NCBI GenBank assembly: GCA_016195085.1
Contig: JACQAG010000043.1
Location: 1 to 64,000 of the forward strand
Length of the DNA stretch: 64,000 nt
Source: Pseudomonadota bacterium
GTDB lineage: Bacteria; Pseudomonadota; Alphaproteobacteria; SHVZ01
Direction: 5' to 3'
Of this stretch, positions 12,678-50,932 are shown one piece after another. Positions within the stretch are counted from its first letter, which is position 1, and every line of letters starts with the position of its first letter. The notes under the pieces were generated by a model. The model did no database searches and was not told the DNA's origin. It saw only the letters and a list, made by a program, of their open reading frames with translations. A program made the translations under genes and the position numbers.

Positions 12678-14066
12678 ATGCGGTGGGACTTCGTTCTATT
12701 TTTCGCCAGCCTCGTCATGATCTACGTCGGGGACTGGGCGCTATATATTGGCGTCGGTGGGTTAGTTCTCAGCATGGCCCACGGCACGCTCAAGCGCATT
12801 ACCGACCGAAAGGCCCGGCGAATGGCGGTCACAATTGGCCTTGTGATCTCAGGGATTGGTTTTCTAGGGCTCAGCGCATTTGCGTTAAGGCCGAATTGGT
12901 TTGGCTTAGCCCAAGAGGGAGGATTCCAGACCGCCGAGTCTGACACCACAACCATCGCGCGGCTCGCAGGACTGGGGTGGGCGGTGAGGCCAACGTCCGA
13001 TGGAATCTCATTTGAAATCGCCGGCCGTTCATTACCCCCGATGGAAGAATCGGCGGCATTTTTTCGAATGCTAAAGAGGCCGTTTTCGCTCCAGCTTGGG
13101 CAGATGAATGGGATTGCCGGCCTTCACTATCTCGCGGACGCACCAAACTGCACAAACATCGTAATCAGTGCCGGACAATTCACGGACATCTCTGAGCTTC
13201 GCGGGTTCACCCACCTTGTCAGCCTCACGATCTCGCAATTACCGCTCAACGGAAGCGGGACGGTGGACCCCGCTGTCCTTTCATCACTCACAAGCCTGCA
13301 AGATCTTCGATTGGGCATGACAAAGATCAGGAACGCGGATTTTGTTGCTGCCCTCCCTCACTTGAAGGTGCTCAATCTGGGGCAAACATTTGTCGATGAT
13401 GTATCGGCGGTGGCCGGTCTGGCTTCCCTTGAGACATTGGACGTCCGAGGAACGCGGGTAACTGATTTGCTCCCGATTGCTCAGAACAAGAATCTGAATG
13501 ATTTAACGATTGATGGAATGCAGGTTCCGGGACTTTCGCATTTAAGGAGTCTGGCGAACCTAAAAAAGCTCACCATTATCGACCAACGAGCCATCGATCT
13601 ATCGCGAGTAGGCGATTTAACTAATCTAGAAACGTTAACCATCTTAGGGGGCACCCAACAGTACGACATCGCGCCACTTCAGAGGCTCGCTAAGCTACGC
13701 CAGCTTATGATCTCGGCGCTCGGGTTCGGAACCCAGGCGCCGGTAAAAGATGCACAAGTGATAGGCGACTTAACAGAGCTAAGGACGCTCACCTTGGGGA
13801 GCCTTCTTATCGCGGATGTCACGTTCATTGAAAATCTCAAGAACCTCACTGAACTCAATCTTCGTGAGCTTCCTATCTTCTCGGTCGAGCCGTTGCGTAA
13901 ACTAAAACTCCTCAAAAAAATGGCCCTGACTGGCCTTATGGTATTCGATATCTCGCCGTTGCTGGATCTTCCGGCACTCGCTGATCTCACAGTTGGACGC
14001 ACCCCCGTAAGGGCCGACGTGCTTGCAGTGTTAGAGCAGCGCGGCGTGAAGGTTTCCAGCTTCTAA
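12678..14066 (+). CDS. membrane-anchored leucine-rich-repeat protein
   Basis: A 462-aa protein. Two or three hydrophobic stretches lie in the first 80 residues (FVLFFASLVMIYVGDWALYI, then IGVGGLVLSM, then a third with TIGLVISGIGFLGLSAF). A linker follows, then from about residue 150 to the end there are about a dozen 20-24-residue LRRs of the SDS22/internalin-like type (LTSLQDLRLGMTKI, LPHLKVLNLGQTFVDDVSAV, LASLETLDVRGTRVTDLLPI). No catalytic domain is visible. LRRs usually bind protein partners. GC content and codon use are clearly lower than the flanking core genes, and the gene lies inside the IS1595-type element, so it is acquired cargo. Function unknown; a surface or sensing role is a guess. 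Confidence 0.75.
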   Translation: MRWDFVLFFASLVMIYVGDWALYIGVGGLVLSMAHGTLKRITDRKARRMAVTIGLVISGIGFLGLSAFALRPNWFGLAQEGGFQTAESDTTTIARLAGLGWAVRPTSDGISFEIAGRSLPPMEESAAFFRMLKRPFSLQLGQMNGIAGLHYLADAPNCTNIVISAGQFTDISELRGFTHLVSLTISQLPLNGSGTVDPAVLSSLTSLQDLRLGMTKIRNADFVAALPHLKVLNLGQTFVDDVSAVAGLASLETLDVRGTRVTDLLPIAQNKNLNDLTIDGMQVPGLSHLRSLANLKKLTIIDQRAIDLSRVGDLTNLETLTILGGTQQYDIAPLQRLAKLRQLMISALGFGTQAPVKDAQVIGDLTELRTLTLGSLLIADVTFIENLKNLTELNLRELPIFSVEPLRKLKLLKKMALTGLMVFDISPLLDLPALADLTVGRTPVRADVLAVLEQRGVKVSSF

Positions 14067-14412: not shown

Positions 14413-15402
14413 ATGACCCAGCACTTCCTCCTATCATCGAAAGCCAAGACGCTCACGCTAGCGTCGGTCTTTCGCATGACGGATGCGGAGGCCGAGGCCA
14501 TGTTCCGCCAGATCCGCTGGCCCGAAACCAATGGCGCCCCGTTCTGCCCGAGCTGCGGCACATTGAACGCCTATGAGTGCCGCCGGCATACGGGCGCCCT
14601 ACGGTTCCGCTGCCGGGGTTGCCGGAAAGACTTCAGCATCACGTCCGGGACGCTGTTCGCCTCCCATAAGCTGCCGCTCCGGGCCTATCTGGCGGCCATC
14701 GCCATCTTCTGCAACGAAGTGAAGGGCAAGAGCGCGCTCGCCCTCTCCCGCGACCTCGGCATGTCTTACAAGGCCGCGTTCGTCTTGACCCACAAGTTGC
14801 GGGAAGCGATGGCCGAAGAGATGAAGGGCCGCACGGTCGGCGGCGCTGGCAAGGTCGCGGAGATCGATGGCGGGTACTTCGGCGGCTATATCAAGCCGGC
14901 CAACTGGCGCGAGCATCGGCGCGATCGGCGGCTGGCCCGTAACCAGAATGGCAAGCGCAAGGCCGTTGTGATCGTCCGTGAGCGCAACGGGAACTCCGTC
15001 CCCGCCGTGTTCTCGACCGAGAGCCAGGCCCTCTCCTGGATCACGTCTCGCATTCAGCCGGGCACGGTCGTGAATGCCGACGAAGCGGCCGGGTGGGATA
15101 GCCTCAACAAGCGCTTTGAAATGCGCCGCATCAATCACCAAGACGCCTATAGCGACGGCGAAGCCTGCACTAACATGGCCGAGGAATACTTCTCGCGGTT
15201 GCGCCGCGCGGAGATCGGGCACCACCACCATATCGCGGGCGTCTATCTCCTGCGATACGCGCAAGAGGCGTCTTGGCGGGAAGACAACCGCCGGGTGACC
15301 AATGGCGAGCAAACCGAGCGCGTCGCCCACCTAGCGATGCGGCGCGGGCCGTCCGTGGACTTCACAGGCTATTGGCAGCGTCATGTTGACCGGCCGGTCT
15401 GA
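14413..15402 (+). CDS. IS1595 family transposase (ISXO2-like)
   Basis: A 329-aa transposase. The N-terminus has an IS1595-type zinc ribbon (FCPSCGTLNAYECRRHTGAL, then FRCRGCRKDFSITSGTLF). The core ISXO2-like DDE-type domain begins with VAEIDGGYFGGYIKP (first Asp), continues with TVVNADEAAGWDSL (second Asp) and NMAEEYFSRLRRAEIGHHHH (the N-x-x-E region of this family). It appears full length with no frameshift. A sigma70-like promoter lies about 28 bases upstream. The last 24 codons overlap the 3' end of the convergent 164-aa gene. Start at ATG 14413 is assumed. Confidence 0.9.
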   Translation: MTQHFLLSSKAKTLTLASVFRMTDAEAEAMFRQIRWPETNGAPFCPSCGTLNAYECRRHTGALRFRCRGCRKDFSITSGTLFASHKLPLRAYLAAIAIFCNEVKGKSALALSRDLGMSYKAAFVLTHKLREAMAEEMKGRTVGGAGKVAEIDGGYFGGYIKPANWREHRRDRRLARNQNGKRKAVVIVRERNGNSVPAVFSTESQALSWITSRIQPGTVVNADEAAGWDSLNKRFEMRRINHQDAYSDGEACTNMAEEYFSRLRRAEIGHHHHIAGVYLLRYAQEASWREDNRRVTNGEQTERVAHLAMRRGPSVDFTGYWQRHVDRPV

Positions 15403-26211: not shown

Positions 26212-29200
26212 ATGTTTGAAATCACCGGTGACGACATTGCCGCGTTGAACGACGAAGATTTGCGCACGCTCGTCGGTAATCTTTGCGAGGCAGAGCTGCG
26301 CCGTCGGAACCTTCCTTCGTCGGCCGTCACATGGGGTGGTGACCAAACGGCGAAGGACGGCGGCATCGACGTTCGCGTGGCTCTCGCATTGGGGACGAGC
26401 ATCGATGGCTTCATTCCGAAGGCCAACACGGGTTACCAGATCAAGAAGCAGTATATGCCGCCCTCAGAGATCAACGGCGAAATGAGGCCAAAGGGTGTCG
26501 TACGGCCGGTCATCGGCGAACTGGCTATGGCATCGGGTGCGTATATCATTGTGAGCTCAGCGGACTCGACGTCGGACTCGGCGCTCAAGGACCGCAGGGT
26601 CGCGATGGCGGAATCGGTGCGGGATATTGCCGGCGCCGAAAACCTCATCCTGGATTTTTATGACTGCAACCGCATCGCGACCTGGGTGCGCGGTCACGCG
26701 GGCTTGATACCGTGGACTCGTTCAAGAATTGGCAAGTCAATTCCAGGTTGGCGACCCTACGGTTCGTGGTCGTATGCGCCTGATGGTGCTGACCCCACCT
26801 ATCTGGTCGACGAGGCGGCCCGCATCAAGACGGGTGACGAGAAAGAAGGAGATGGCCTCACCGCAACGAACGGGATAAACAAGATTCGAGATGTGCTTCG
26901 CACACCGGGCCATGTCGTGCGGCTTGTCGGACTTTCAGGCGTCGGAAAGACGCGGTTGGTCGAAGCGCTCTTCGACTCGGCTGTTGGCTCAGGCAGCCTC
27001 GACCCATCTCTCGCCATCTACACGAATATTGCCGAAGGGCCCGATCCTCAGCCTGCCGGCCTCGCCTCCGATCTGATCGCAGGACGCACGCGTGCGATCC
27101 TTGTCATCGACAATTGCCCGCCAGACATCCATCGCCAGCTGTCCGACATCGCCCGATCGGCTCGCACGACGATAAGCGTCATTACGGTCGAGTACGACAT
27201 CCGCGAAGACCAGCCCGAAGGCACAGAGGTCTTCGTGCTGGACACATCTTCGGTAATCCTAATCGAAACGTTGATTTCGAAGCGGTTTCCCAACCTTTCT
27301 CAGATCGATGCCCGAACGATTGCTGAGTTCTCGGGTGGGAACGCGCGTGTCGCCTTGGCGCTGGCCGGTACGGTGGCGAAGAACGAAACGATTGCGGGGT
27401 TGAGCGATGCCGACTTGTTCCGTCGGCTCTTTCAACAGCGGCATGATCCCGACGCTTCGCTCCAGTCAATCGCGCAAGTGTGCTCGCTCGTTTACTCATT
27501 TGAAGGAGAGAAAGTCTCGGGCGACGGAGCCGAGTTGCCGATCCTCGGCGGCCTGATTGGAAAATCTGCTGAAGAAGTATTCCGTGCGGTTGCCGAATTG
27601 AAGCGGCGCGATCTGGTTCAGCAACGCGGGCCATGGCGGGCGGTACTGCCACACGCCATTGCGAACCGCCTTGCAGCCATTGGGCTTGAGAATATTCCTC
27701 GTTCCAAGCTGTTGTCGGTGTTTATAGAGAGCGCGCCTGAGCGCCTCCTTCGGTCCTTCTCGCGTCGCCTTGGCTATCTCGATGGCAGCAGGGAAGCGCA
27801 GGCCATTGTTCAAAGCTGGCTGGCGCCGGGCGGAATATTGAGTGATGTCACCAACCTCACCGAGCTAGGCCGCGCCATGTTCGACAATGTCGCGCCGGTG
27901 ATGCCGGATGCCGTACTTTCGGTACTGGAGAAGGTCTTCGTGGAATCGGATGAGGCCACTCTTAGAAAATGCACCCACTTCCTTAGGCTCCTGCGCTCGC
28001 TTGCTTTCGATCCGGTGCACTTCGAGCGCGCTGTTTCACTTCTCGTTGCGTTTGCCCGGCTGCCCAGTAGTGACCTGTCTAACAGCGATGCGGCGAATAT
28101 CATTGAGTCACTCTTCTACATCGTTCTGTCCGGCACGCACGCACCACTTAAATTGCGTCTTTCCCTCGTTGAACGTTTGCTGCGCTCCTCGGACCCTGTT
28201 GAGCAAGGCTTGGGAGTCAAGGCGCTGCAAGCAATGCTCAAGACAAGTCATTTCTCGTCCACGTATGAATTCGAGTTTGGCGCGCGGTCACGCGACTACG
28301 GGTATTACCCTCCAACTCGCCAGGACGTACGAGATTGGTTCACGTCTGTTTTGAGGCTCGCGGAACCATTCGCGCTGTTGGAAAATCCGGTCGCTGAACT
28401 GGTGCGAAAAGCTATCGCACGTGAATTTCGCGGGCTTTGGACAGATACGGAGGCGGCCGATGAACTGGAGCGGTTGGCATATGCTGTCGCCACCGAGAAG
28501 TTCTGGCGCGAAGGCTGGATCGCCGCGCGTCACACTCGAATTTATGAGGGCAAAGGTCTTCCACCAAAATTACTGGCGCGGCTCACGGCCCTTGAAAAAT
28601 CTCTAAAGCCTGAGAATCTGATCGACAAGGTTCGTGGTCTTGTCCTTGGCTCGAACGGCGGCGGCGTCGATCTCGACGAATTGAACGAGGTTGAAAATGA
28701 CGGCTACGATGCGGCGGCCTCGCGCGTGGCTACGGCGGTCGAAAACCTTGGTCGGGATGTGGCCACCGACGAGCAAGCGTTCAAGGTATTGCTACCTGAG
28801 CTGATCGACGCGTATGGCAAAGTCGTTGGCTTTGGCCAAGGCATGGCGCTTGAAGCCGAACAGCCGCGTGAGATGTGGAGTGCCATGGTCGCACAGGTAA
28901 CTGAGACGGGGAAGCCGGGCATCGACCTCTTGTGTGGTTTTCTCGACGGCCTTCAGAAGCGGGATGGCGCTCTCGCCAATGCCCTGCTGGATGAAGCGTT
29001 GGACGATCCGACGCTCGCCGCGTGGCTTCCCACCTTGCAAGCCGGCGTCCGCATCGATGAAGATGGGCTGCGTCGGCTGCATCGCGCGCTTGAGCTTGGC
29101 AAGGCGCCGATCGATCGATTTTTTGGTCTTGCTTACGGGCGTACCTGTGATGTCATCCCTGGGTCCGAGTTTAAGCGTCTCATGCTGTCGATCGGACAGA

Positions 29201-30015
29201 AACCTGGCGGAGTTCCAGTTGCCATGGATATTCTTGCCATGCGCATGCACTCTGACCGCAGCGGCAAGAAAGCGTTCGTGCCGGAGGTTGCTGAAGCGGG
29301 CCGTGAGCTTCTTAGAGCCTATGAGTTTCATCGCAAGGATAACCGCGCAACGCGCGAAGATTACGAGATAGGCGTGATCGTCCGGGTTTCGCTCGCTGGA
29401 GAGGAAGGAAAGGCGATTGCGCAGCAGTTGTGCCGTAATCTGATGGCCGCAGCTGCGCGGTATGAAGTGCATGCCTACGACCACGACGACCTCTTGAAAG
29501 CACTTTTTCAGGTCCACCCGGTCGACGTGCTCGATGAGCTATTCTCAGGGGACAGGAAGTCCCAGGACAACAGTATCCGGTTGCTGAATGATGTTCTGCG
29601 TTTTGGCAAGACTCCGATTGACGCGGTATCCGACGAGGTCATGCTCGGCTGGTGCGATCGCGAGCCGAAAGACCGGTACCGGTTGGCAGCTGCTGTTGCT
29701 TTGCTGTTCAAACGGCCTAATGACAACGCCCCACATGAATGGACGAGCCTGACGCACCAGCTTCTTATGAAGGCACCTGATCCGGAAGCCGTCTTCAAGG
29801 AAGTCGTCAAGCGCCTGCGTCCCACGGGCTGGAGCGGATCGCTAGCGACGAAGCTTGAATCCCGCCTTACGCTGCTCATTCAACTTGATGTCAGCGCAAT
29901 CCCGACGCTAGCGGCGCCTCTCGATAGTGCCAAGTCAATGCTGAAGCAATGCATAGAAATAGAGCGCCGTCGCGAGACAGAAGAAGACAAGGCCCGCAGC
30001 GGGCGATTTGAATAA
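26212..30015 (+). CDS. candidate nuclease-STAND defence protein (Avs-like architecture)
   Basis: A 1267-aa protein with no signal peptide or membrane segment. Residues 1-130 resemble a PD-(D/E)xK (Mrr-like) nuclease: KDGGIDVRVAL with Asp53, then GYQIKKQ with Gln76-Ile-Lys78, and Glu28 in a preceding helix. A P-loop NTPase follows: Walker A GLSGVGKTRLVEALF (240-247) and Walker B RAILVIDNCP (Asp300). From about 400 to the end are many helical segments (KALQAMLKTSHFSS, LLDEALDDPTLAAWLPTLQA) suggesting a TPR/HEAT-like sensor. Nuclease-NTPase-helical repeats is the layout of Avs/STAND phage-sensing proteins. No such search was run. It is island-borne and lower in GC. The stop is 78 bases before a core GST gene. 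Confidence 0.6.
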   Translation: MFEITGDDIAALNDEDLRTLVGNLCEAELRRRNLPSSAVTWGGDQTAKDGGIDVRVALALGTSIDGFIPKANTGYQIKKQYMPPSEINGEMRPKGVVRPVIGELAMASGAYIIVSSADSTSDSALKDRRVAMAESVRDIAGAENLILDFYDCNRIATWVRGHAGLIPWTRSRIGKSIPGWRPYGSWSYAPDGADPTYLVDEAARIKTGDEKEGDGLTATNGINKIRDVLRTPGHVVRLVGLSGVGKTRLVEALFDSAVGSGSLDPSLAIYTNIAEGPDPQPAGLASDLIAGRTRAILVIDNCPPDIHRQLSDIARSARTTISVITVEYDIREDQPEGTEVFVLDTSSVILIETLISKRFPNLSQIDARTIAEFSGGNARVALALAGTVAKNETIAGLSDADLFRRLFQQRHDPDASLQSIAQVCSLVYSFEGEKVSGDGAELPILGGLIGKSAEEVFRAVAELKRRDLVQQRGPWRAVLPHAIANRLAAIGLENIPRSKLLSVFIESAPERLLRSFSRRLGYLDGSREAQAIVQSWLAPGGILSDVTNLTELGRAMFDNVAPVMPDAVLSVLEKVFVESDEATLRKCTHFLRLLRSLAFDPVHFERAVSLLVAFARLPSSDLSNSDAANIIESLFYIVLSGTHAPLKLRLSLVERLLRSSDPVEQGLGVKALQAMLKTSHFSSTYEFEFGARSRDYGYYPPTRQDVRDWFTSVLRLAEPFALLENPVAELVRKAIAREFRGLWTDTEAADELERLAYAVATEKFWREGWIAARHTRIYEGKGLPPKLLARLTALEKSLKPENLIDKVRGLVLGSNGGGVDLDELNEVENDGYDAAASRVATAVENLGRDVATDEQAFKVLLPELIDAYGKVVGFGQGMALEAEQPREMWSAMVAQVTETGKPGIDLLCGFLDGLQKRDGALANALLDEALDDPTLAAWLPTLQAGVRIDEDGLRRLHRALELGKAPIDRFFGLAYGRTCDVIPGSEFKRLMLSIGQKPGGVPVAMDILAMRMHSDRSGKKAFVPEVAEAGRELLRAYEFHRKDNRATREDYEIGVIVRVSLAGEEGKAIAQQLCRNLMAAAARYEVHAYDHDDLLKALFQVHPVDVLDELFSGDRKSQDNSIRLLNDVLRFGKTPIDAVSDEVMLGWCDREPKDRYRLAAAVALLFKRPNDNAPHEWTSLTHQLLMKAPDPEAVFKEVVKRLRPTGWSGSLATKLESRLTLLIQLDVSAIPTLAAPLDSAKSMLKQCIEIERRRETEEDKARSGRFE

Positions 30016-48804: not shown

Positions 48805-49049
48805 GTCTGTAGCGCTCGCTCGCTGGCGAAACGCACTCAGACAAGATAGGGACTACATTTGTATACGGTAGTTGATGTTGCAGTTACTATCGAATTTTAT
48901 TTCCGCATAGTATTAGTGCCCAACTGCAAATATCGAGACAAATTATTAATTCAGAGGAGTGCGCAGCATTACCATTTAAAATTGTTGCGAGCATGGTAGC
49001 ATGAGGCGCCGCTAATGAACCTGAGCGAAGCGATTGGTGGAAGATCGCA
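48805..49049. other. AT-rich spacer upstream of the small-protein/ImmA pair
   Basis: It is strikingly AT-rich next to its neighbours (TGTATACGGTAGTTGATGTT, then AATTTTATTTCCGCATAG, AAATTATTAATTC). It probably marks the edge of an inserted segment and holds the promoter. An ATG at 49015 opens a different frame and is not the gene start. Confidence 0.45.
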
Positions 49050-49466
49050 TTGGCGAGCCGGGACGAAACTCAGCCGCTTCGGGTCTATGATGCTGGAGAG
49101 CGGCGCTTTAAGCATAAGGGGCAATCCTCCAAGGCCGAGATTCGCTTTGACCCTCGAAGTCCTAAACGCGCAATTGGCATTTGCCCGAACAACATTTCCG
49201 ATGCGCAAAAGGTGGAGCTGCTCAATGGGGCGATAGAAGTCGAAAGCGACCTGCGTGAAGGGCAGTGGCCGTCCCGGCTGTACAACGTTCACCGAGGAGC
49301 TATTTACGAGGCGCGGACCACGACGGCGGGAAGGTCGTACCATGGTTACCCTTATCGTGGTCGGCTAAGACGAGAATTGATTGATCTCTTACGGCAGATT
49401 GCTGCGAACAAGGATTGTCTCGATGAATTCGAGAAATGGGTCGATGAGCATATAAGCCAGTCATGA
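49050..49466 (+). CDS. small protein partner of ImmA/IrrE-type protease
   Basis: A 138-aa protein. The visible natural region includes QPLRVYDAGERRFKHKGQSS, then AIGICPNNISDAQKVELLNG, WPSRLYNVHRGAIYEARTTT and YHGYPYRGRLRRELIDLLRQ. The only available start is TTG 49050; codons between 49005 and 49049 also look coding, so the true start may be non-canonical or the gene 5' end damaged. Its TGA overlaps the ATG of the next gene (ATGA), so they are translated together. A recurring pairing of such proteins with ImmA/IrrE proteins is remembered, not verified. Function unknown. Confidence 0.6.
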   Translation: MASRDETQPLRVYDAGERRFKHKGQSSKAEIRFDPRSPKRAIGICPNNISDAQKVELLNGAIEVESDLREGQWPSRLYNVHRGAIYEARTTTAGRSYHGYPYRGRLRRELIDLLRQIAANKDCLDEFEKWVDEHISQS

Positions 49467-50932
49467 TCCCTACGATCCGTAACGCTCGCGCTTTGTCATT
49501 TGCTATCCGGTGGCGACCTATTGACGCTCCGGGGAAGGCAAGCAATCACGCCGATATCGAACTCAGAATCGACGATACACGCATTTGGCCCTCGGGTCAG
49601 GTTGATGACAGTTTTGCATGGTTTGCCGACGAGCTACTTGCGCATTTGACGGAGTATTGGAAGGCACTGGTGTTGCAACAGACCTATCCTGGTTCGTTGC
49701 AACCACCCTATCCTTCGGCTTTGCGGCACGAAGCGAACATCAGCTCCGTGTCAGCTAGCCAGGAGATCGCTCGAAAGCTTGCTCAGGAAGTCGACGATTT
49801 TGAGACGGCGCACAATCTGGCGTCGGCCTTCGGAGGTATTTCAGGGATCCCCTCCCTATGGTTGGTACGCGAAGAAATGGCAATGGTTGTCGAACCAGAA
49901 GGGCGCAATCCATATCGTGTGCCTCTTAGCGGCGCGATCACGGCACTCAACAATGTTGGTGACGAAATATGCGTCCGCCTTCGCGACAGCGGTGATAGCA
50001 GATGGAGTGCAATAATTGCTGCGTGGGAGTCCAGAAACGGAGGCGATTCGGTTCGGATTCAGTCGTTCGCAATAGGGCAAGATTTGGAGACCACTCGTGC
50101 GTTGATTCACGACCGCTTTCTCGCTTCGCCTAACTCAGTCATTGATGCGAGCAATGACAACGACGAACTCAAGATCGCGGCGCGCATGTCAGGCATCCTC
50201 ACAATTGCGGAAATAGAAGCTATTTTGAGGGAAGTCAGGTCTTGTGGACTTCGGCAAACGGACACTCTCGACCGACTTTCTCAAGAAGCACTCGACTTTG
50301 CTGATGATGACAGAACGGATAGCCTAATTCATGAGGCCGGCATTCGTGCGGCGAAATGGTTGCGTCAGAAGCTCGTGCTGCGGCCGGTGGACATAAGTGA
50401 TCCATTCAAATTTCTGGCAGATCACAATGTCGATGTTAGAGAGCGATCACTCAATTCGCCGGAGGTCGACGCAATTGCTTGTTGGGGACCACGCCACGGT
50501 CCGGCGATTATCATCAACCGAACGTCGCGGCGTCACAAGACACCGTATACAGGTCCGATGGCGCGTGCCGGTGCGATTCGCGCGACTGCTGCTCATGAAA
50601 TCTGTCACCTGTTGTTCGATCGCGGGCACACACTTCCTGCGGCAGAGGTGCTTGGTGGTCGAGTAGCTCATTGGGTGGAGCAGCGTGCTCGTGCCTTCGC
50701 TGCTGCGTTCCTATTGCTGCCCTCAGTTGCTGCGGATAAGTGGCACGCGCATGGACGCCCCATGGATGAAGAAGGTGTAAACAAAGCTCTAACGGCTCTC
50801 TGTGCACGCTATCAAGTTACTAAGAGCATCGCGGCGTGGCAGCTCGAGCATGGTCTCGGCTCGGAGGTTAATCCTCAATTGAAACGAATTCTCGACCGCG
50901 TCGCACCAAATCGGTACGCGGCTCTGCCCTAA
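49463..50932 (+). CDS. ImmA/IrrE family metallo-endopeptidase
   Basis: A 489-aa protein. The HExxH zinc motif is AAHEICHLLFDRG (about residue 377), followed by EQRARAFAAAFLLLPS, the ImmA/IrrE third-ligand region. The 330-residue N-terminal part (IEAILREVRSCGLRQTDTLD) is unknown. ImmA-type peptidases cut repressors of mobile elements; IrrE controls the DNA-damage response. No repressor gene is adjacent, but the coupled small protein at 49050 could be the substrate or partner. GC is lower than in neighbours, indicating acquisition. Its stop overlaps the convergent stop of the Na/Pi gene by four bases. Confidence 0.8.
   Translation: MIPTIRNARALSFAIRWRPIDAPGKASNHADIELRIDDTRIWPSGQVDDSFAWFADELLAHLTEYWKALVLQQTYPGSLQPPYPSALRHEANISSVSASQEIARKLAQEVDDFETAHNLASAFGGISGIPSLWLVREEMAMVVEPEGRNPYRVPLSGAITALNNVGDEICVRLRDSGDSRWSAIIAAWESRNGGDSVRIQSFAIGQDLETTRALIHDRFLASPNSVIDASNDNDELKIAARMSGILTIAEIEAILREVRSCGLRQTDTLDRLSQEALDFADDDRTDSLIHEAGIRAAKWLRQKLVLRPVDISDPFKFLADHNVDVRERSLNSPEVDAIACWGPRHGPAIIINRTSRRHKTPYTGPMARAGAIRATAAHEICHLLFDRGHTLPAAEVLGGRVAHWVEQRARAFAAAFLLLPSVAADKWHAHGRPMDEEGVNKALTALCARYQVTKSIAAWQLEHGLGSEVNPQLKRILDRVAPNRYAALP

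Follow-up and report, generated by a model that had tools for sequence, protein, structure and literature searches.

The DNA analysed here, called the window below, is a stretch of 64,000 nucleotides from a Pseudomonadota bacterium of the alphaproteobacterial lineage SHVZ01 (assembly GCA_016195085.1, contig JACQAG010000043.1, positions 1 to 64,000 of the forward strand). It carries two adjacent genes, A and B, which an earlier description made from the letters alone (the first-pass annotation) had presented as a 138-amino-acid (aa) protein tied by an ATGA overlap to a 489-aa HExxH protein with a long N-terminal region of unknown kind. The sequence bears out both open reading frames (ORFs), their sizes and their overlap (Table 1), and the N-terminal half of B indeed belongs to no Pfam family.

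Table 1. Features of the A-B locus, in positions of the window (GC3, G+C content at third codon positions).
Feature	Position	Strand	Basis
Gene A, small protein of 138 aa with a TTG start, proposed toxin	49050..49466	+	ORF; 61-member family alignment; AlphaFold2
A His22 codon	49113..49115	+	kept in 90% or more of 61 family members
A Cys45 codon	49182..49184	+	invariant, 61/61 members
A His98 codon	49341..49343	+	invariant, 61/61 members
ATGA overlap, A stop/B start, 4 bases	49463..49466	+	sequence
Gene B, 489 aa, ATG start, proposed antitoxin with M78 peptidase domain	49463..50932	+	ORF; Pfam; 74-row alignment
B residues 1-195, N-terminal half, proposed A-neutralising (immunity-like) domain	49463..50047	+	no Pfam family
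B residues 313-450, ImmA/IrrE (M78) peptidase domain	50399..50812	+	Pfam, profile and structure matches
HExxH (HEICH), B residues 378-382	50594..50608	+	H378, E379 and H382 invariant in 74 rows
B Glu406 codon, candidate third zinc ligand	50678..50680	+	invariant in 74 rows
AT-rich insert, limits approximate	48805..50932		GC and GC3; between iolG-like dehydrogenase gene and Na/Pi cotransporter-like gene

The TTG start of A has GGAAG ahead of it; the frame is open from 49005, i.e. for 15 more codons, among which there is no other ATG, GTG or TTG. Pfam matched no family in A, and no helix-turn-helix (HTH) or repressor domain is detectable there by Pfam. The 61 aligned family members are similar in size to A and display a series of near-invariant residues: Tyr13, Lys21, His22, Gly43, Ala54, Leu58, Pro74, Gly83, Tyr86, Ala88, Pro101, Ala118 and Trp130. 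The ratio of nonsynonymous to synonymous substitution rates (dN/dS) could be measured in three pairs of loci (designated by L numbers), two further pairs being saturated: it is 0.18 for L064/L066 (dS 0.03), 0.09 for L084/L091 (dS 0.48) and 0.05 for L083/L084 (dS 2.3, near saturation), with respectively 0.20, 0.12 and 0.11 for B of the same pairs. Because its relatives are similar in size and dN/dS is low, A is a gene under purifying selection and not the 3' piece of a longer one, the case in which the first-pass annotation would have given up its idea.

The AlphaFold2 model of A (mean predicted local distance difference test, pLDDT, 89.9) has a predicted topology of two strands, a helix, a beta meander and two helices. 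Among 994 chains compared with VIA-align, its best structural match is 5t87_G, a 75-residue chain of the Cupriavidus contact-dependent inhibition (CDI) complex that we take from its length to be the toxin chain (Z 4.6, root-mean-square deviation (rmsd) 3.5, 69 aligned of 75). RelE-, ParE- and HigB-type toxins come next, at Z 2.0-2.8, and apart from 5t87_G nothing in this set lies above Z 2.8. This middling match is a lead, according to which A is perhaps an RNase of BECR-like fold. Foldseek gave nothing for A below E 0.1 in the PDB or among viral models; we rejected these empty lists as a sign of fold novelty, since Foldseek also missed IrrE for B, where a sequence profile as well as VIA-align find it. 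At the sequence level, 11 of the 61 A members match the PADLOC NsnC model PDLC03898 at E <= 0.1 (best 2.6e-6), six match another PADLOC NsnC model at the same threshold (best 1.3e-6), and the A relative of L127 matches positions 180-260 of 263 of NsnC with an E of 1.7e-9. The A of the window itself reaches only E 0.015-0.018 for NsnC, which is its sole PADLOC match at E <= 1. NsnC is a component of NsnABC, the Menshen system. No A relatives were found in phage records.

The single Pfam family recognised in B is Peptidase_M78 (residues 373-459), at 23 bits, the cut-off being 22; IrrE is found with a sequence profile (3dte, E 2.2e-7). In the AlphaFold2 model (mean pLDDT 92.0), residues about 280-486 resemble CapP (7t5t; Z 12.3, rmsd 3.9, 170 aligned) and the C half resembles IrrE (3dti; Z 9.9, rmsd 3.5, 158 aligned), both according to VIA-align of the predicted structure. 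B displays the features that characterise M78 peptidases, i.e. an HExxH and a glutamate in an IrrE-like fold; Glu406 is a candidate for the third zinc ligand of this family. Pfam assigns no family to the N-half of the window protein, and none recurs over 53 rows of relatives; likewise an HTH is found neither in B by Pfam at E <= 1 nor among the families matched by the 53 N-half rows. Of 618 chains compared with B, a single one matches the N-half above Z 3.5, the CDI immunity protein CdiI 5ffp of Burkholderia dolosa (Z 7.2 with 6% identity; 132 aligned of 155, rmsd 3.7). No B relative was confirmed in viral contigs.

The first-pass annotation had suggested checking if the two families co-occur, and they do. 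A scan of named genomes with the B alignment yielded 207 stretches encoding a relative, of which the best 79 were retained as loci and scored with family models, L044 and L054 being placed by hand owing to long open frames; the loci having been collected by a peptide pattern in B, an A without B cannot be counted there. A complete A lies beside a complete B in 58 of the 79 loci, and a looser rule also gives 58; L050 was counted as complete though its A ends at model position 105 of 134. The other loci have a complete B with an incomplete A (eight: L038, L047, L054, L057, L060 whose A has an internal deletion, L070, L089 and L101), a complete B with no A recognised by the model (seven: L034, L040, L043, L068, L073, L074 and L088), a complete A with a frameshifted B (L104 only), or an incomplete B without complete A (five: L032, L086, L099, L107 and L102, in the last of which B is frameshifted and A nearly complete). 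Among the loci with no A, L073 is at a contig edge, L034 and L043 have another upstream gene and the B of L088 has an N-terminal extension. One locus, L048, has two B genes, one of them with A.

According to record titles, the complete pairs occur in Alpha-, Beta- and Gammaproteobacteria, Magnetococcales, deltaproteobacterial lineages and Myxococcota, and further in Acidimicrobiia (L033, L044), Nocardioides (L087), Hydrogenedentota (L080), Planctomycetaceae (L092) and Fimbriimonadaceae (L079, L103). Plasmids carry some of them, two in Agrobacterium and one in Thiodictyon; the two Agrobacterium stretches, which share 99.98% identity over the sequence that starts 545 bases upstream of A, were counted once. 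The commonest spacing between A and B is -4 (20/68) and overlaps of 4-34 bases are found in 55/68, with the B start taken as the in-frame start nearest a 4-base overlap, a rule that favours -4.

Searches starting from A covered three overlapping sets: 398 genomes of the phylum (14 matched), 385 of the class (4 matched) and 48 of one class reached via G069 (14 matched). They gave 15 distinct strong matches (E <= 1e-24), 12 of which are full-length A; all 12 have at least the N-half of B directly downstream, and for nine of them this is a full-length HExxH B. In L015, downstream of an intact A, B is reduced to 220 codons, in which the N-half is retained (162 bits) and the C-half missing (-2.7 bits), and other sequence follows; in L023, likewise with an intact A, the HExxH segment of B is deleted in the alignment; in L131, a full-length A precedes a 273-codon B frame holding the N-half (95 bits, model positions 4-187). 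Where A is broken, B is intact (L119), absent from the 3.3-kb locus (L118) or a remnant (L120). As for the remote A matches (E 8e-4 to 5e-8), a B homologue lies directly downstream in eight of nine; one of these eight pairs, L121, has a broken A frame, and the ninth match, L122, which has no B homologue, is probably due to chance. The A and B families are strongly coupled across phyla. Besides, in the Pseudomonas/Stutzerimonas loci L084 and L091, B is 98.5% identical (dS 0.06) and A 90.9% (dS 0.48); as A diverged far more than B, A alone may have been exchanged between these alleles.

We consider it rather probable that A and B form a toxin-antitoxin-type module, in which the N-half of B neutralises the toxin A and the IrrE half is a sensor or a release device; the pair looks toxin-antitoxin-like or defence-like, as first supposed. 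Its role would most likely be that of a growth-arrest or phage-defence device. A would be a toxin of alpha+beta structure, perhaps the RNase of BECR-like fold evoked above, that the N-half of B would bind and hold inactive, while the C-terminal IrrE/ImmA-like zinc peptidase half would act as a regulatory switch: upon sensing of DNA damage or infection the peptidase half would be engaged and A released, either by self-cleavage of B or by a conformational change. Toxicity, binding, RNase activity, trigger and release are what we infer for this pair. The peptidases IrrE and CapP act after DNA damage, and it is for this reason that we guess at a withdrawal of inhibition triggered by damage or infection.

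The evidence points to the N-half of B, rather than its peptidase half, as the part that faces A. The nine distant B relatives that we examined (L121, L125, L126, L128, L129, L130, L132, L142 and L143) all lack HExxH, and each stands beside an A-family frame, broken in L121 as said above; the motif RAFA[AS]E[FL]LxP is kept in seven of the nine, and the remote pairs L127 and L133 keep HExxH. Since these nine relatives, as well as L015 and L023, keep an A-family partner, neutralisation probably needs no proteolysis. The dead peptidase halves also imply that the switch, if it is general, would not always work by proteolysis. In the Massilia plasmid locus L128, the HExxH-less pair comes directly after the dptG-dptH phosphorothioation restriction genes.

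These same loci bear on the idea that A is simply the substrate of B, its cleavage activating or removing A, which is close to what the first-pass annotation had in mind when it took the small protein for the likely partner of the protease. CapP and IrrE, which the C half of B resembles, cleave partner repressors, and the invariance of HExxH and Glu406 in the 74 aligned B rows also speaks for this idea. The relation would then be like that of ImmA to ImmR, protease and repressor (PMC10440598). However, A has no repressor or HTH domain that Pfam can detect, the nine HExxH-less relatives still have their A-family partners, and A is intact beside a B without site (L023) or without domain (L015), so that we hold this explanation to be unlikely.

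A second indication for the N-half comes from loci where the partner differs. In L028 (Azospirillum ramasamyi), L034 (an Acetobacteraceae metagenome-assembled genome) and L043 (Acetobacter fallax) the upstream gene is not A; the three upstream proteins are mutually homologous and their plasmid relatives are partly annotated as GNAT acetyltransferases, Pfam support for GNAT being weak: of three plasmid relatives submitted, two match it, at 0.0065 and 0.015, and the proteins of L028, L034 and L043 do not. In the B proteins of these three loci the C-half scores 177-199 bits, within the range of other B or slightly under it, and the N-half 21-98 bits, which gives an N/C ratio of 0.11-0.51. In 68 other B rows, close relatives left out, the median ratio is 0.83 and the 5th percentile 0.64. 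As the N-half diverges and the C-half does not where the partner is GNAT-like, we propose that the N-half is the partner-specific one. A third indication is that none of the 12 full-length A genes found in the searches from A is without an N-half of B behind it.

Several points weigh against this. The comparison opposes three related loci to 68 rows, some of which lack an intact A, and one of these 68 (L108, with a weak A, 0.32) also has a ratio at or below 0.51. The ratios of L010, L011 and L020 are also low (0.45, 0.57 and 0.38), as are their C scores; the N-half of L088, a locus without A whose B carries an added N-terminal region, is normal (0.83). Coevolution does not separate the two parts of B either: by distance correlation, A distances compare with those of the N and C parts at r 0.62 and 0.62, with partial values of 0.41 and 0.40. 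Finally, the CDI and BECR resemblances of A and of the N-half are middling matches of predicted structures. As regards L010, L011, L020 and L088, in all four the B relative carries an added N-terminal region and no A was found upstream; DUF6575 is matched weakly in L010 and L020, and L088, itself unmatched, is DUF6575-like by its similarity to them. A phage-defence system from an Escherichia coli pangenome screen likewise contains DUF6575 (PMC9519451).

The pair could also be part of a larger defence or regulatory device, with B as a sensor resembling CapP and A as an effector dependent on other genes. CapP is the closest structure to the C half of B, the A domain is similar to the C-terminal part of NsnC from Menshen, and the GNAT-like relatives come with HTH and ImmA/IrrE genes in eight of ten plasmid loci inspected, these ten having been chosen by us out of 52 records. 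On the other hand, the neighbourhoods reveal no third partner. From 269 neighbours picked by script, 243 of them under 700 aa, 146 were drawn at random and 122 analysed, 24 being removed by hand as spurious-looking or as overlapping the pair or a second pick. Among these 122 no recurrent third gene accompanies A-B, the commonest Pfam family being present in five. With PADLOC (E <= 1e-10) 38 models matched, and each of the 25 shown occurs in one member; they include PglX, a Pycsar cyclase, DarT and helicases, and the defence-island context of the pairs is only suggestive. A larger device of this sort seems to us quite improbable. Regarding the GNAT-HTH-IrrE cassette itself, it recurs at defence operons (plasmid loci L164-L167, L170, L171 and L173; also L172): the GNAT-like gene is flanked on one side by a small regulator, of RHH/CopG type or other, and on the other side by the HTH and ImmA/IrrE pair, with multiubiquitin and ThiF (ubiquitin-like) genes adjoining in seven of the ten plasmid loci, and a CBASS cyclase adjoining in L172.

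Which gene of the module would be the toxin is indicated by the damaged loci. A complete B without complete A is found in 15 of the 79 loci, a complete A with a frameshifted B in one; given that the set was collected through B, only the figure of 15 is informative for the orientation, and the five loci with an incomplete B and no complete A were left out of the argument. The clearest single case comes from Marinobacter, where L074 and L098 share 97.3% identity along 1507 bases that cover B and the last stretch of A; in L074 the rest of A is gone and B is still open. This survival of B after loss of A favours A as the toxin. The reversed roles, a toxic protease B inhibited by A, are an unlikely explanation: a full or nearly full-length A does stand beside a damaged B in L015, L023, L102, L104 and L131, and in PD-lambda-2 an Xre-peptidase protein is toxic alone and rescued by a small upstream HigB-like partner (PMC9519451), but complete HExxH-bearing B proteins exist without A (L040, L068) or with an incomplete A (the eight loci listed above), and L074 keeps B intact after the loss of most of A; a toxic B should not tolerate such losses. 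The loci with damaged B and the precedent of PD-lambda-2 also tell against the orientation that we prefer; the former make it harder to see B strictly as an antitoxin, except if its N-half is enough for neutralisation.

With B as the antitoxin, the closest tested relative in kind is RipAB, together with the RosmerTA group (RmrT/RmrA) that includes it. In Streptococcus pneumoniae, RipB (Spr1629), homologous to ImmA, counters RipA (Spr1630), for which an action on the sliding clamp has been proposed (PMC12795458), and RosmerTA combine one ImmA-type antitoxin domain with many toxins (PMC10440598). As in A-B, a toxin gene lies there beside an antitoxin with an ImmA/IrrE domain, and a single kind of antitoxin with a peptidase is shared by diverse toxins. 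PADLOC RmrA models hit residues 274-421 of B (best 4e-6); the match of B to the NCBIfam spr1629 antitoxin is weak (0.0017, 17.5 bits against a cut-off of 335), an Agrobacterium relative reaching 9.4e-12. The RosmerTA antitoxins have an N-terminal Xre HTH (often in NetFlax, and in RipB, without being universal), whereas B has instead its 195-residue N-half. RmrT models match neither the A of the window (E <= 1) nor, among the models listed, the 61 A members (E <= 0.1), which weighs little, RmrTs being diverse.

Other systems share one part only. CapH/CapP, which controls CBASS, and IrrE/DdrO have the fold of the C half of B, whose HExxH is intact, but there as in ImmR-ImmA the partner is an HTH repressor, whereas B has an A without HTH as partner and an extra N-half. 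PD-lambda-2 also associates a toxin-like gene with an Xre-peptidase protein, and the three B proteins placed behind a GNAT-like gene instead of A evoke the GNAT toxin systems; small partners and N-terminal regions differ in both cases from those of A-B. Menshen, described with OLD-nuclease-like and DUF262 proteins (PMC10952713), has in NsnC a C-terminal part (positions about 180-260 of 263) that A matches at family level; A, by contrast, is free-standing and paired with an IrrE protein. As to CDI, A resembles a chain of complex 5T87 and the N-half of B resembles CdiI 5ffp, so that each points to a CDI protein; this is suggestive, although both Z values are possibly fortuitous and sequence searches found no CDI relation for A or the N-half. 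Moreover, CDI comes with CdiA and a secretion context, whereas A and its aligned relatives are free-standing genes without such context.

We may go one step further, with a proposal that we regard as doubtful: a CDI-type toxin and its immunity domain could have been turned into an intracellular two-gene switch against stress or phages, the fusion to an IrrE-type peptidase making immunity withdrawable on DNA damage. The same toxin domain would be used in NsnC of Menshen, and the immunity half would be exchangeable, for A or for a GNAT-like partner, on one peptidase chassis.

The first-pass annotation spoke of a module not yet described. This holds for the pair as such, absent from Pfam, NCBIfam and PADLOC and without a description in the literature searched, but not for its general kind, since ImmA/IrrE-domain antitoxins with diverse toxins are known (RosmerTA, RipAB, NetFlax node D25). 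What is new next to RosmerTA is the lack of HTH, the N-half and a toxin domain common with NsnC. If our interpretation is true, it adds a toxin domain so far without a name, which exists on its own as well as in Menshen, and a modular antitoxin whose IrrE part is kept while the part that binds the partner can be exchanged. It would also give a direct way to probe the role of the ImmA/IrrE domain in such antitoxins, because the naturally dead or missing peptidase halves can serve as controls.

The pair lies, as had been noticed, in an AT-rich insert, which is confirmed by composition and by the neighbours: G+C content is 0.534-0.557 over the pair (four 1-kb windows) for about 0.64-0.71 farther away, and GC3 is 0.57 in A and 0.53 in B for 0.835-0.905 in six neighbouring genes. 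The outer neighbours, read by eye, are metabolic and transport genes, an IolG-like dehydrogenase and a Na/Pi transporter. There is no tRNA at the insert, no promoter-like site on the + strand and no terminator-like site was found at A-B, and the only flanking repeats are imperfect direct repeats of 14-16 nt, none of which frames the insert. A clean empty site is not demonstrable, the same-family relatives carrying the iolG-like and Na/Pi-like genes far apart or on different contigs. The host genome has a single copy each of A and B (E <= 0.001). Within the host lineage the pair seems to have been gained, since among six other genomes of the same family B matches come only from G712, where they are weak and limited to the peptidase region (E 5.7e-5 and 7.0e-4), although these six genomes are 77-97% complete.

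Elsewhere in the window, a second low-GC stretch (0.57-0.59) at 26212-30015 (+) holds a 1267-aa ORF with a P-loop-like nucleoside triphosphatase stretch; its N-terminal region reads, by eye, as restriction-type, which makes it a candidate STAND-type defence gene. Another likely insert, also judged by eye, is at 12678-14066 (+), where a 462-aa leucine-rich-repeat-like protein is encoded with a G+C content of about 0.52; the adjoining ORF at 14413-15402 (+) reads like an IS1595-type transposase.

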